From IMG/VR virus record IMGVR_UViG_3300032299_001015, positions 1-64,000 of that record: a stretch of DNA of 64,000 nucleotides; one strand, 5' to 3'. Below the pieces are notes generated by a model. That model ran no database searches. It was not told the origin of the DNA and saw only the letters and a program-made list of their open reading frames with translations. The stretch comes from a virus. The translations under genes and the position numbers were made by a program. Of this stretch, positions 3,152 to 6,995 are shown piece by piece. Within the stretch, counting starts at the first letter, position 1. Each line of letters opens with the position of its first letter.

Positions 3152-3159
3152 TTCCACGC

Positions 3160-3230
3160 TGGCATGGTACGATTCGAACGTACAACCTTCCCGTTAACAG
3201 CGGGATACTCTGCCGTTGAGTTACATGCCA
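3160..3230 (-). tRNA. tRNA-Asn (anticodon GTT)
   Basis: 71-base cloverleaf: perfect 7-bp acceptor stem TGGCATG/CATGCCA, D-stem ACTC/GAGT, anticodon stem TCCCG/CGGGA with loop CTGTTAA giving anticodon GTT, and T-arm TACG-TTCGAAT-CGTA. No CCA is encoded. It sits between the HNH gene and a small gene. Confidence 0.93.
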
Positions 3231-3235
3231 TTAAA

Positions 3236-3646
3236 TTAATCGATAGTTTTATATCCAGATTGATTTCTTGAATATGTTCTTATTCTGTGGCAGTTAGCGC
3301 AAACTACATCACATTTTTCTAATTCTAAAATAGCCTTTTCCCAAGAATATCTTCTTAATATTTGAGTTGGACTATCTACTTTAGTATACCCTGGCTTGTG
3401 ATCAAAATCTAGCATCCAATGAGGATATTTTTCTCCGCAGTCAATGCATCCAATGACTTCCTTATATTCCCATAATTTTCTTGTTAATATAGTTCTACTA
3501 CGAGTAGAACGATTTCTAGTTTTTTCCTTTTGACCGTTTCCAAGATGATATGCTATTGTTCCCTTAGAGCAGCCAAGAATTTTTTGTATCTCACGATATG
3601 ATTTTCCCTGAGATTTTAATTCAATAATTTTTTCTTTATGCTTCAT
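3236..3646 (-). CDS. HTH-HNH homing-type endonuclease
   Basis: 136 residues. Residues 8-36 form a helix-turn-helix (KSYREIQKILGCSKGTIAYHL), joined to an HNH nuclease: zinc pair C67-x2-C70, catalytic-type LDFDHKPG with D82/H83, and VCANCHR with C116, C119 and H120. Free-standing HNH proteins of this layout are common phage homing endonucleases; some small HNH proteins instead assist terminase, and the terminase lies only 1.6 kb away. It is flanked by tRNA-Asn and tRNA-Gln, a frequent landing place for mobile nucleases. A TATAAT lies 12 bases before its ATG. Confidence 0.88.
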   Translation of the reverse strand: MKHKEKIIELKSQGKSYREIQKILGCSKGTIAYHLGNGQKEKTRNRSTRSRTILTRKLWEYKEVIGCIDCGEKYPHWMLDFDHKPGYTKVDSPTQILRRYSWEKAILELEKCDVVCANCHRIRTYSRNQSGYKTID

Positions 3647-3679
3647 GGTTCGATTATATCATACAATTCGAACAATCGC

Positions 3680-3750
3680 TCCCAATCAAGGGTTCAAACC
3701 TCGTCCTCCAGATCCAAAGTCTAGCGTGCTGTCGATTACACCAATCGGGA
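3680..3750 (-). tRNA. tRNA-Gln (anticodon TTG)
   Basis: 71 bases: acceptor TCCCGAT/ATTGGGA (one G-T pair), D-stem GTG/CAC, anticodon stem CTAGA/TCTGG with loop CTTTGGA giving anticodon TTG, and T-arm with loop TTTGAAC. No CCA encoded. The D-loop lacks a GG pair, which is atypical. Its first bases adjoin the tRNA-like inverted-repeat element at 3756-3857. Confidence 0.88.
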
Positions 3751-3860: not shown

Positions 3861-4220
3861 CTATTTAGTTATATCGAAAGGACTGCCTTCCCACATTTTT
3901 TTCATCCTATTAACGATTGCTCTCGACCAGGAATATCCTGCGTCACCGCCCCAGGCATCCCACATTATCTTTCCATTCGATGGATAGCCTTCTTCACCAG
4001 GAGAGAATCCCTTTCCCTGCTTATCTACTTCATGTCTAGAGAAGTAAGAATACATTCTCTTAACTGTGTCTAATGAAAGGGATTCTTTTCTTGCCAGTTG
4101 TCCCGCTCGCGTCCATCCAACAGATGTTCCTGCGCCTTTAGCCTTTCCTTCTTCTTTCCACTTCAATGCTCGTTTCGCATTTGATGACATAGCATCAGTG
4201 GGTTTGTATGTTTCAGCCAT
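3861..4220 (-). CDS. Conserved phage protein with WGGDAG motif
   Basis: 119 residues. It carries a conserved-looking block: NAKRALKWKEEG, GTSVGWTRAGQLA, MYSYFSRHEVDKQGK and IMWDAWGGDAGYSW. I know this arrangement as a stand-alone small protein or a module of phage capsid-maturation and other proteins, of unknown function. The ATG at 4220 overlaps the end of the small zinc-finger gene and follows a GGAG site. It is not clearly nuclease or structural. Confidence 0.7.
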   Translation of the reverse strand: MAETYKPTDAMSSNAKRALKWKEEGKAKGAGTSVGWTRAGQLARKESLSLDTVKRMYSYFSRHEVDKQGKGFSPGEEGYPSNGKIMWDAWGGDAGYSWSRAIVNRMKKMWEGSPFDITK

Positions 4221-4344
4221 TTATTTTTCTCCACATCCAAAAACTAATATAATATGCATGGAAGTGTTTATGGCAAACTTCGGCTTTGAAGTTATCTCTT
4301 TCTCCCTGCCATTCTGCTGGGCTACCACAAAATTTACATTCCAT
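4213..4344 (-). CDS. Tiny zinc-binding protein (43 aa)
   Basis: 43 residues starting MECKFCGSPAEW, with a C-x2-C pair (C3, C6), then C24 and H25/H28/H30 in EVCHKHFH, enough ligands for one zinc site. Its end overlaps the next gene start by 8 bases (ATGGCTGA), and its start lies 7 bases after the methyltransferase stop. Translational coupling is likely. Function unknown. Confidence 0.6.
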   Translation of the reverse strand: MECKFCGSPAEWQGERDNFKAEVCHKHFHAYYISFWMWRKING

Positions 4345-4350
4345 AACAAA

Positions 4351-4893
4351 TTATAGCATTCCAAGTTTTGTCGCATAATCATACATCATAATTCCACTTG
4401 CGACACTAACATTTAGACTACGAACACTTCCAAGTTGTGGAATCATAACAACATCGTCTGCCATTCCAAGACCCATGGGGCTTACGCCCCTTGCTTCTTC
4501 ACCAAAAATCATAAAGGTATTCGGACTCCACTCGTATTGAGTAATTGGAATAGCCCCAGGAACATTATCCACTGCCACCCACTTCATGTCTCTGATATGA
4601 GGCTCATTAAGATAAATATGATCTAGTGATGGAGCGTATTTAAGATGAACATAGTTTTGAGTTCCCACTGCTCCACGCCTATCCCATCTTTTATTACCAA
4701 TGATCCATGACTCTTTTGCTAGAAAAGCGTTACTGTTACGAATTCCAGATGCTTTATTAAAGTCACCAGAAATATTTTCAAAGCCTACAACAAATGGAAG
4801 TCGGCGGCTATCAAGATCTGCTTTAATTTGATCATTCTCCCACTCCTTGTAGTAGTCAATAACGTTTCTAGTATCCTTTCCAATCTCCACCAT
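4351..4893 (-). CDS. SpoU/TrmH-family RNA 2'-O-methyltransferase
   Basis: 180 residues carrying all three SPOUT motifs of the SpoU/TrmH family: motif 1 N40-ISGDFNKASGIRN with the catalytic-type Asn and Arg, motif 2 FMIFGEEARGV at 128-137, and motif 3 IPQLGSVRSLNVSVAS at 151-166 that forms the AdoMet-binding knot. Members methylate the 2'-OH of tRNA or rRNA ribose. No N-terminal RNA-binding extension is seen, so it resembles compact TrmL/TrmH enzymes. It sits between terminase and the tRNA genes, suggesting a role on phage or host tRNA; the substrate is unproven. Confidence 0.88.
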   Translation of the reverse strand: MVEIGKDTRNVIDYYKEWENDQIKADLDSRRLPFVVGFENISGDFNKASGIRNSNAFLAKESWIIGNKRWDRRGAVGTQNYVHLKYAPSLDHIYLNEPHIRDMKWVAVDNVPGAIPITQYEWSPNTFMIFGEEARGVSPMGLGMADDVVMIPQLGSVRSLNVSVASGIMMYDYATKLGML

Positions 4894-5218
4894 GATACGC
4901 TCCTGTACTGTAAATGAGATACATCATTGATTTTTCATCTTCTGTAAGGTTATCCGACTGCACCCATTCTTCAGATTTATTTGTAAGATAGATGTATGCT
5001 TCTCCGTCTTCATCCATCTTTAAATCTAGAAATCCTTTAAACCATAATGAATTCATAATGTCTGAATCCATTTCCCTCATGTACTCAACTACTTCCGCCT
5101 GTTCTTCATAAAAGAGTGGAGTAATCTTATACAGCGGATCACCTACAGGGTTATATCCTACCACCTTGATGTAACCTTTATCAAGCAATATTTTTATCAG
5201 GTCTTCGCTCATGTCCAT
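4868..5218 (-). CDS. Hypothetical protein (116 aa), winged-helix-like
   Basis: 116 residues, acidic. The first 35 residues (EDLIKILLDKGYIKVVG...PLYKITPLFYEEQ) read like a small winged helix with a helix then a beta-hairpin. It starts 2 bases after the terminase stop and overlaps the methyltransferase start by 26 bases. No family recognised; a terminase-linked or regulatory role is guesswork. Confidence 0.6.
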   Translation of the reverse strand: MDMSEDLIKILLDKGYIKVVGYNPVGDPLYKITPLFYEEQAEVVEYMREMDSDIMNSLWFKGFLDLKMDEDGEAYIYLTNKSEEWVQSDNLTEDEKSMMYLIYSTGAYHGGDWKGY

Positions 5219-5219
5219 A

Positions 5220-6995
5220 CTAGATCATCCCTATTGATTGAATATAATCATCTATATTATTAGATGATGGAGGAGGAGTGATAACATTTTTCTCCGCCTC
5301 TTCCCTCCGCTGGTCTCTAATAAATTGCTTGTATGTATGCACTTCTATCTCTATTTCTTCCGACTCTTTTCTAGTATTTGAAATAGTGTTATAGATAGAT
5401 CCACATACGGCATCAGAGAGATCCTTTGATCCTTTTCTTGGGTGGTCAACCTTATCTCTAATTATTCTTAGTTGCAGCAATTCATCTGTTAGAAGTTTAA
5501 TGTCTGGACCTATAATTCTTTCCTCTCCTACTAACATAGCCATATCATCGTAATGCTTCTTGGCTACAGAAAGTGTTTCTGTTTCTATTCCAGCCATTCT
5601 AAGTTCTGCCATAATGTCATGAGAGTTCCACCTATCAAAGGTCACCTTTTTAATATTGAATCCCCTAGATCTAAGATCTATAATAAATTGTTTTACCTCT
5701 GAAAAATCTACAGATTTATCAGCGGTGGGAGTCCACCATCTTACACAATCTACTACAACTATTGGACTTACAACTCTGTGACTCATAAATGATTTAATCT
5801 GAACCCACCTGTCAACATGGGACATGGCTACAGCACAATGATCATGTTTCTGGGCAAGATCAACGTGTATGTAATATTCTTTACCATCCTGTGGAATAAA
5901 CCAATCTTTAAATCTTCCATCCTCGTCTACACCATTCATTGGTTGATTAAAGCACGCCAGAATCTTTTCTTTTGATTTAAAGAATGCATCTACTGCATCT
6001 GGAGGCATACAGGCAAATCTTCCAAGAGCGTCGATTGGATTGTTATAGAAGGCAATTTTAAAATCATTGATAGATCTAGTTGGATTAACTTCCCAGGTAG
6101 GTCTCTTTAATGCAAATACTTTAGGGTACTTATAAGCATTAATTTGATCCTCTTCCCACTCAACAGTGAATTCGTTCCCTGGCATATTCTCTAGTTCTTC
6201 ATCTAGTTTAAATGTATGAGATCTAATGATGACTTCTTTGTCCGCCACGACTGCATCATATCTTTGCTGGATAAAGTCATTCTTATATCGGGGGAAAGAT
6301 AGTAGGACTACCTTACCAAAATCTGGGAATCGTGAATCTACAGAGGCTCTATACATATCATAGATCGCCTGCCCAGTTTTAGACTGTTCGTTGCCACTTG
6401 TAGAAATAGTGCTGAAGCCAGAAATCTCGTCAAGGATCACACAGATAACGTTGTAACCTTCCCATGACTCTCTCTCTGAGTGACCAGAGTGACATGTAAT
6501 GGATTTATCGAACGATACGCTTTGCGCTGTAATGCTGTACTTGCCAGTAAACCACGGAGAATCTTCAACTCTTTTTCTAAAGCCCTTAAAGAATACGTTC
6601 TTTGCTTGTTCAGAGTTGATAGCAATATTAATAATGTCAATAGAGTCACCTGGGGGCTTGCCAAAATATTTGGCTGGATCTTTTAAGCATAGAAGCAAAT
6701 ATACAAGATAGGTTACTGAGATTGTAGAAAGATAATCTTTACCCGACCCTTTTCCTAATTGCAAAATTACTTCATTACAAGTTTGACGGGATCTTTTAAG
6801 ACCCTCTTCTTCTCCATATAACTTAGTCAGAGTTTCTTTTTTGTAGATTTGAGTCATGGCTCTAATCGATTGATATTGATATGAAGATAGGGGTGGAAGG
6901 TGTAGATAATCTTCATTGGTAACAAACTCTTCAACTGTTACGGGGCGTTCTTCAAACTCATCATCCTCCAACGCCGATATAAAATCATCAAACAT
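5220..6995 (-). CDS. terL: Terminase large subunit (ATPase and nuclease)
   Basis: 591 residues. ATPase domain with Walker A GKGSGKD (81-87) and Walker B VICVILDE (183-190). The C-terminal RNase H-like nuclease shows an acidic strand YIHVDLAQKHDH (Asp near 375), a middle VTFDRWNSHD, and a final DLSDAVCGS near 523. The enzyme pumps DNA into the prohead through the portal and cuts the concatemer. The ATG overlaps the stop of the upstream small-subunit candidate (TAATG). It lies about 42 kb away from the portal gene, with the tail and replication genes between. Confidence 0.95.
   Translation of the reverse strand: MFDDFISALEDDEFEERPVTVEEFVTNEDYLHLPPLSSYQYQSIRAMTQIYKKETLTKLYGEEEGLKRSRQTCNEVILQLGKGSGKDYLSTISVTYLVYLLLCLKDPAKYFGKPPGDSIDIINIAINSEQAKNVFFKGFRKRVEDSPWFTGKYSITAQSVSFDKSITCHSGHSERESWEGYNVICVILDEISGFSTISTSGNEQSKTGQAIYDMYRASVDSRFPDFGKVVLLSFPRYKNDFIQQRYDAVVADKEVIIRSHTFKLDEELENMPGNEFTVEWEEDQINAYKYPKVFALKRPTWEVNPTRSINDFKIAFYNNPIDALGRFACMPPDAVDAFFKSKEKILACFNQPMNGVDEDGRFKDWFIPQDGKEYYIHVDLAQKHDHCAVAMSHVDRWVQIKSFMSHRVVSPIVVVDCVRWWTPTADKSVDFSEVKQFIIDLRSRGFNIKKVTFDRWNSHDIMAELRMAGIETETLSVAKKHYDDMAMLVGEERIIGPDIKLLTDELLQLRIIRDKVDHPRKGSKDLSDAVCGSIYNTISNTRKESEEIEIEVHTYKQFIRDQRREEAEKNVITPPPSSNNIDDYIQSIGMI

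Follow-up and report, generated by a model that had tools for sequence, protein, structure and literature searches.

The window analyzed here, a stretch of 64,000 nucleotides covering positions 1 to 64,000 of the IMG/VR virus record IMGVR_UViG_3300032299_001015, raises the question of which RNA would be modified by a phage-encoded methyltransferase of the SPOUT class whose gene lies among tRNA genes. The source record is an 84.4-kb virus contig. The terminase of the window is 59 to 63% identical to those of Streptomyces phages (Stanwilliamsviridae) and 43% identical to that of Rhodococcus phage Peregrin, which suggests that the host is likely an actinobacterium. The methyltransferase gene is part of a minus-strand gene string that runs from the terminase to tRNA-Asn (Table 1), and tRNA-Gln starts approximately 600 bp downstream of it. 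A scan for promoters and terminators around the methyltransferase gene gave nothing above chance.

Table 1. Features of the minus-strand gene string around the methyltransferase gene, in the order in which they are read
Feature	Positions	Strand	Basis and remarks
Terminase large subunit	5220..6995	minus	Upstream, same gene string; PHROG 9, E 1.4e-18
116-aa ORF, function unknown	4868..5218	minus	26-bp overlap with methyltransferase start; cluster c6, kept next to the gene within the window clade
Shine-Dalgarno-like AGGAG	4900..4904	minus	6 nt 5' of the methyltransferase ATG; read directly
SPOUT 2'-O-methyltransferase gene, TrmH-like	4351..4893	minus	180 aa, ATG start, TAA stop; PF00588, PDB TrmH, pLDDT
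43-aa ORF after methyltransferase	4213..4344	minus	ORF list; small ORF recurs at the same place in relatives
119-aa ORF, phrog_2859, function unknown	3861..4220	minus	E 3e-39; between methyltransferase and tRNA-Gln
tRNA-Gln(TTG)	3678..3750	minus	ARAGORN; Rfam RF00005, 49.6 bits
HNH endonuclease ORF	3236..3646	minus	PHROG 2255, E 1.4e-23; between tRNA-Gln and tRNA-Asn
tRNA-Asn(GTT)	3158..3230	minus	ARAGORN; Rfam RF00005, 66.8 bits

The initial annotation had described the product as an intact SpoU/TrmH enzyme of the SPOUT class, and this identification is borne out. The protein matches PF00588 over essentially the full profile (positions 2 to 142 of 142; E value of 3.1e-19; 69.9 bits against a cutoff of 29.7), and the motif residues (motif I, N46-x5-R52; motif II, G131-E132-E133; motif III, G155-S-V-R158-S159-L-N161) are essentially invariant. 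An alignment of 160 distinct family proteins, with gaps not counted, shows R52 in 159/159, E133, R158, and S159 in 160/160 each, N46 in 158/159, and N161 in 159/160. Comparison with the relative at locus L005 gave a dN of 0.016 and a dS of 0.30 (pairwise NG86; dS is saturated for most other pairs), and since dN/dS is far below 1, the gene is under purifying selection. A chance ORF is ruled out by the profile match, the fold, and selection, and the reading as a pseudogene was likewise rejected.

By sequence, the closest solved structures are the TrmH proteins of Escherichia coli and Thermus thermophilus (PDB 1v2x, E value of 7.5e-9). An AlphaFold2 model, built from 28 family members, has a mean pLDDT of 90.4 and a pTM of 0.86. 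The best distinct PDB matches of this model in Foldseek are T. thermophilus TrmH (1v2x; E value of 2.2e-12, TM-score of 0.76, approximately 24% identity), Aquifex aeolicus TrmH (1zjr), E. coli TrmH (7edc), and human TARBP1 (2ha8; E value of 1e-10), all four of them tRNA Gm18 enzymes; RlmB, AviRb, TrmL, and others rank lower. Because the predicted fold matches TrmH and TARBP1, from which the topology is taken, the model contains the SPOUT fold including the knot-forming region. The structural comparison that had been proposed as a check on the AdoMet knot thus comes out, at the level of a model, in favor of its presence.

The same comparisons place the protein near TrmH and outside its orthologous group. 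It shares with TrmH (SpoU, the bacterial tRNA Gm18 enzyme) the SPOUT fold, the N/R/E/S/N motif residues, and an N-terminal helix, found at residues 20 to 29 before the SPOUT domain in the model, and it covers positions 8 to 160 of the TrmH profile. The NCBIfam models score 57.6 bits for TrmH, 41.0 for RlmB, and 34.4 for TrmL, with the first falling far short of the TrmH equivalog cutoff (NF008295, 227 bits) and the others not reaching theirs (160 and 190.6 bits, respectively). Searched against E. coli proteins, the phage-family profile gave 82 bits for TrmH, 46.5 for RlmB, 25.3 for TrmL, and 15.7 for TrmJ, and TrmH was the top hit among these four enzymes in 49/49 sequence clusters. Besides being phage-borne, the protein differs from TrmH in ending with the last SPOUT helix, without a C-terminal extension after the knot, and from E. 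coli TrmH also in a WDRRGAVGT segment absent from the latter. Given the missing extension and the score far below the curated cutoff, the protein is best described from its sequence as a TrmH-like enzyme and not a TrmH orthologue. The eukaryotic Gm18 enzymes Trm3/TARBP1 resemble it in fold and in having no C-terminal extension; in contrast to them, it has no giant N-terminal domain.

The enzyme belongs to a sizable phage family. The close clade that includes the window counts 43 loci in IMG/VR, and wider scans returned 368 to 446 relatives each, in overlapping sets of which the best 80 were kept. In all, 253 loci were gathered, with one family ORF each and some being repeat fetches of one contig, and these form 49 clusters at 80% identity. 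No meaningful PHROG match was obtained for the window protein or for seven diverse family members. Among 84,980 bacterial and archaeal (GTDB) genomes, scanned in a single run with two short peptide patterns, only two ordinary cellular homologues were found, both weak, which argues against recent transfer of a host gene. As far as searched, the family appears to be restricted to phages. In a tree, the five cellular rows fall outside a group that holds all 50 phage rows; branches are long, and the split is modestly supported (92/76).

Among named phages, clear members are the gene products 33 of Rhodococcus phages Trina and NiceHouse, which are 31 to 33% identical to the window protein over the alignment. 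A clear member with 38% identity is also present in a 484-kb uncultured phage (LR756508.1, locus L047), for which 28 tRNA matches were obtained. Weak matches (27 to 29% identity) occur in phage records of Salmonella, Escherichia, and Campylobacter, and several of these records resemble host DNA. Phages Phredrick, Jay2Jay, and Peregrin carry tRNAs after the terminase, and neither their annotation nor tblastn shows a family member there. The presence of tRNA modification genes in huge phages is known in general terms (PMC7162821), and the name "tRNA-methyltransferase" had already been given to the Trina and NiceHouse genes by their annotators. The size of the clade and its linkage to tRNA genes were not found described: a search of open papers returned none on a phage SpoU/TrmH/SPOUT clade, its size, or its tRNA linkage.

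The vicinity of tRNA-Gln and tRNA-Asn, on which the initial annotation had built its proposal, is real, as both tRNA genes are recovered by ARAGORN and by RF00005, and across loci the association of the gene with tRNA genes is nonrandom. ARAGORN detected a tRNA in the locus of 43 of the 49 cluster representatives, at a median distance of 341 bp. In 23 of the 42 testable loci, a tRNA occurs no more than 300 bp from the methyltransferase gene; the other genes of these loci, taken as the control with a minimum length of 100 aa, give an expectation of 10.4 ± 2.6 (p about 5e-5). With one representative per 70% cluster, the count is 9/18 against 3.9 expected (p = 0.005); at 60% clustering (10 loci), it is not significant (p = 0.21), with the mean log distance giving p = 0.03. 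Relatives without tRNA genes were also looked for. All 36 large carrier records contain tRNAs (RF00005 search), and in a search of 13 records, mostly picked for having no tRNA nearby, two have none at all, both of them fragments (47.9 and 4.9 kb). Of the two outcomes that would have refuted the initial annotation, loss of the knot and relatives without tRNA genes, neither was thus obtained. A calcineurin-like metallophosphoesterase of about 250 aa (cluster c63) also recurs near tRNA genes, in loci L071, L072, L073, L078, L080, and L083.

Because the TrmH-related enzyme is intact and the gene lies close to tRNA genes in its relatives, modification of tRNA during infection is the most likely function. 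On balance, we favor a phage SPOUT/SpoU tRNA 2'-O-methyltransferase that acts most likely at G18 and would serve to mature or stabilize the tRNAs of the phage, and perhaps those of the host. Such an enzyme, descended from or sister to TrmH, would bind AdoMet in the trefoil knot, probably as a dimer, and would methylate, in a subset of tRNAs, the 2'-OH of a D-loop nucleotide, most likely G18. Its presumed substrates are the phage's own codirectional tRNAs just downstream, and possibly host tRNAs. These would be matured, stiffened, and stabilized, so that translation of phage genes may be kept up. A widespread phage TrmH-like family tied to tRNA genes provides a specific, testable gene for asking which tRNAs, and which defenses, matter.

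A G18 enzyme is favored because all 49 clusters score best to TrmH and because tRNA-Gln(UUG), which is most often the first tRNA downstream of the gene, is of an isotype methylated by E. coli TrmH, as are Leu, Ser, and Tyr (PMC5372725). Sequence kinship nevertheless leaves the site unfixed, since Vibrio cholerae has a predicted TrmH-family enzyme, yet no Gm18 was detected in its tRNAs (PMC12588516). Several features count against G18. The invariant R158 resembles E. coli TrmL (SRSMN) and is unlike TrmH (VQSLN). T. thermophilus TrmH depends on its C-terminal extension to bind tRNA (PMC9508554), and the phage protein, like Trm3/TARBP1, has none. Finally, four loci lack a detected tRNA-Gln (see below), and the tRNA-Gln of the window itself is unusual.

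This tRNA-Gln has the D-loop AATCGACAG and the T-loop GGTTTGAA, which are also found in loci L023, L028, and L036. With positions 19 and 56 assigned by eye, G18 is kept, G19 is replaced by A, and C56 is replaced by U; the normal tRNA-Gln of relatives has G19-C56, and A19-U56 is therefore an apparent compensated tertiary pair. According to a review of SPOUT enzymes, G18-G19 is the sole essential sequence determinant of TrmH (PMC9508554), and methylation of tRNA-Gln by E. coli TrmH requires a short A14-G18 distance (PMC11640301). With A in place of G at position 19, and with A14 and G18 farther apart, the window tRNA-Gln should be a poor substrate for a TrmH-type enzyme. The window tRNA-Asn has G18G19 and an A14-to-G18 stretch one nucleotide short, and would be a good substrate if the phage enzyme is TrmH-like. 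A short A14-G18 distance occurs in 45 of 74 unique phage Gln(TTG) sequences, when G18 is located by taking the first GG that follows position 14; so simple a rule may misplace single tRNAs. Among class I tRNAs, it was found in 78/166 from carriers, versus 11/51 in the tRNA regions of three relatives without an annotated gene (Fisher p = 0.001), a comparison that is confounded by host lineage and has just these three stretches as control.

The resemblance of R158 to TrmL raises the possibility of methylation in the anticodon loop, at position 34 (or 32) of Gln(UUG), Leu(CAA/UAA), and other tRNAs, as carried out by TrmL and TrmJ. Decoding would then be altered, or anticodon nucleases that use this 2'-OH would be directly blocked. 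TrmL (YibK, which forms Cm34/Um34 in tRNA) shares with the phage protein its compact size and the arginine preceding the serine of motif III. Its substrates are Leu(CAA) and Leu(UAA), which neighbor the gene in some phages, Gln(UUG) is a TrmJ substrate for Um32 (PMC5372725, PMC12588516), and U34 is present in every Gln(TTG). We nevertheless consider this possible but unlikely: TrmL and TrmJ are clearly the weaker matches in the profile comparison and also come lower in the fold comparison, the phage tRNA-Gln has either C or U at position 32, and TrmL consists of the SPOUT domain alone, with no N-terminal helix like that of the phage protein (PMC9508554).

The linkage itself could have a trivial origin: tRNA regions may be hot spots of insertion, where the gene would have landed by chance in an inherited block, without tracking tRNA function. 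HNH genes and other cargo are also found among the tRNAs, and the arrangement is inherited within a clade. The preference for tRNA-Gln fits this pattern. In 27 loci with a tRNA within 1 kb downstream, the first one is Gln(UUG) in 15, Leu(CAA/UAA) in 5, and Ser in 1, and the 15 for Gln compare with 6.6 expected when labels are shuffled within loci; however, the preference is significant only at 80% clustering and is gone at 70% or below, so that it may be one old inherited arrangement. In four close relatives (L002, L003, L017, and L024), which retain both the methyltransferase and tRNA-Asn, ARAGORN detected no tRNA-Gln; together with the loss at coarse clustering, this weakens the idea of a dedicated partner of tRNA-Gln. 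The proximity to tRNAs as such was, however, measured against other genes of the same loci, and clades with different upstream neighbors (terminase, DNA polymerase B, and others) still keep the tRNAs beside the gene. Chance cargo is thus a rather improbable account of the linkage.

The initial annotation had gone further and suggested that methylation could protect phage or host tRNAs from anticodon nucleases or alter their decoding. In its general form, methylation at any site would make phage or host tRNAs resist tRNA nucleases such as PrrC, VapC, or the PARIS effectors. An analogous idea underlies bacterial Pnkp/Hen1 RNA repair, where the ends of broken tRNAs are 2'-O-methylated; the enzyme fold is a different one, and most carriers of the phage gene lack the accompanying ligase. 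It has been proposed that phage tRNAs escape anticodon nucleases through mutations in the anticodon loop (PMC10264068). In actinophage relatives, genes for RNA ligases and polynucleotide kinase as well as rII-like genes are found near tRNAs, and a paper on Rhodococcus phages ties such ligases and tRNAs to countering tRNA-directed defense (PMC13313380). In Trina and NiceHouse, with about 30 tRNAs each, the methyltransferase is followed at a distance of five to seven genes by an RNA ligase; unlike the window, these phages have no tRNA within 8 kb of the methyltransferase gene.

The results do not support the protective role. A role in tRNA repair would predict RNA ligases, and tRNA repair ligases (PF09414, PF09511, and RtcB) were found by family searches in only 3 of the 36 large carrier records, where absence from fragments is weak evidence. 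A repair cassette with an RNA ligase as partner was seen only in the Trina/NiceHouse-like branch and in record G005. PADLOC gave no match to the enzyme, and among its neighbors only a weak homing endonuclease match of the HNH ORF. Moreover, anticodon nucleases cut in the anticodon loop, far away from the favored site, G18, which is in the D-loop. An anti-defense role is accordingly possible, with a probability that we consider low. The relatives Jay2Jay (L268) and Peregrin (L269), annotated without the methyltransferase, do have tRNA repair ligases, and this inverse pattern is at most suggestive of alternative strategies. It is conceivable, if doubtful, that the phage-restricted TrmH-like clade methylates tRNAs against host tRNA-cleaving defenses or decay, in parallel to repair by ligases; if true, a route of protective modification would exist beside RNA ligase repair.

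Methylation of 23S rRNA by an RlmB/TsnR-like enzyme, which would alter host ribosomes or confer resistance to ribosome-targeting molecules, is very unlikely even though RlmB is the second-best relative and the AviRb/TsnR/NshR folds match well, as RlmB is always weaker than TrmH, the closeness to tRNA genes is left unexplained, and the L30e-like domain found N-terminally in the RlmB and TsnR families is missing from the phage protein.

Some further observations concern the tRNA regions themselves. The HNH ORF of the window lies between tRNA-Gln and tRNA-Asn, two genes that in most close relatives are separated by 11 bp. An HNH ORF directly follows the A19-U56 tRNA-Gln in the window and in L028; in L036, an HNH homologue ends beside tRNA-Gln on the other side, and none was found in L023. 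The HNH ORF of the window may be a homing element by which a tRNA allele is carried along or exchanged. The whole record (G000, locus L045) has a second tRNA region at 74868-83914, with five tRNA-like genes called by ARAGORN (Ile, Arg, Trp, Leu, and Glu). The Rfam search backs fewer of these five calls and gives six tRNAs in the whole 84.4-kb record. The Ile and Trp calls are oddly shaped, the Glu gene has an encoded CCA, and the region lies near a ThyX gene and a DUF7178 gene.
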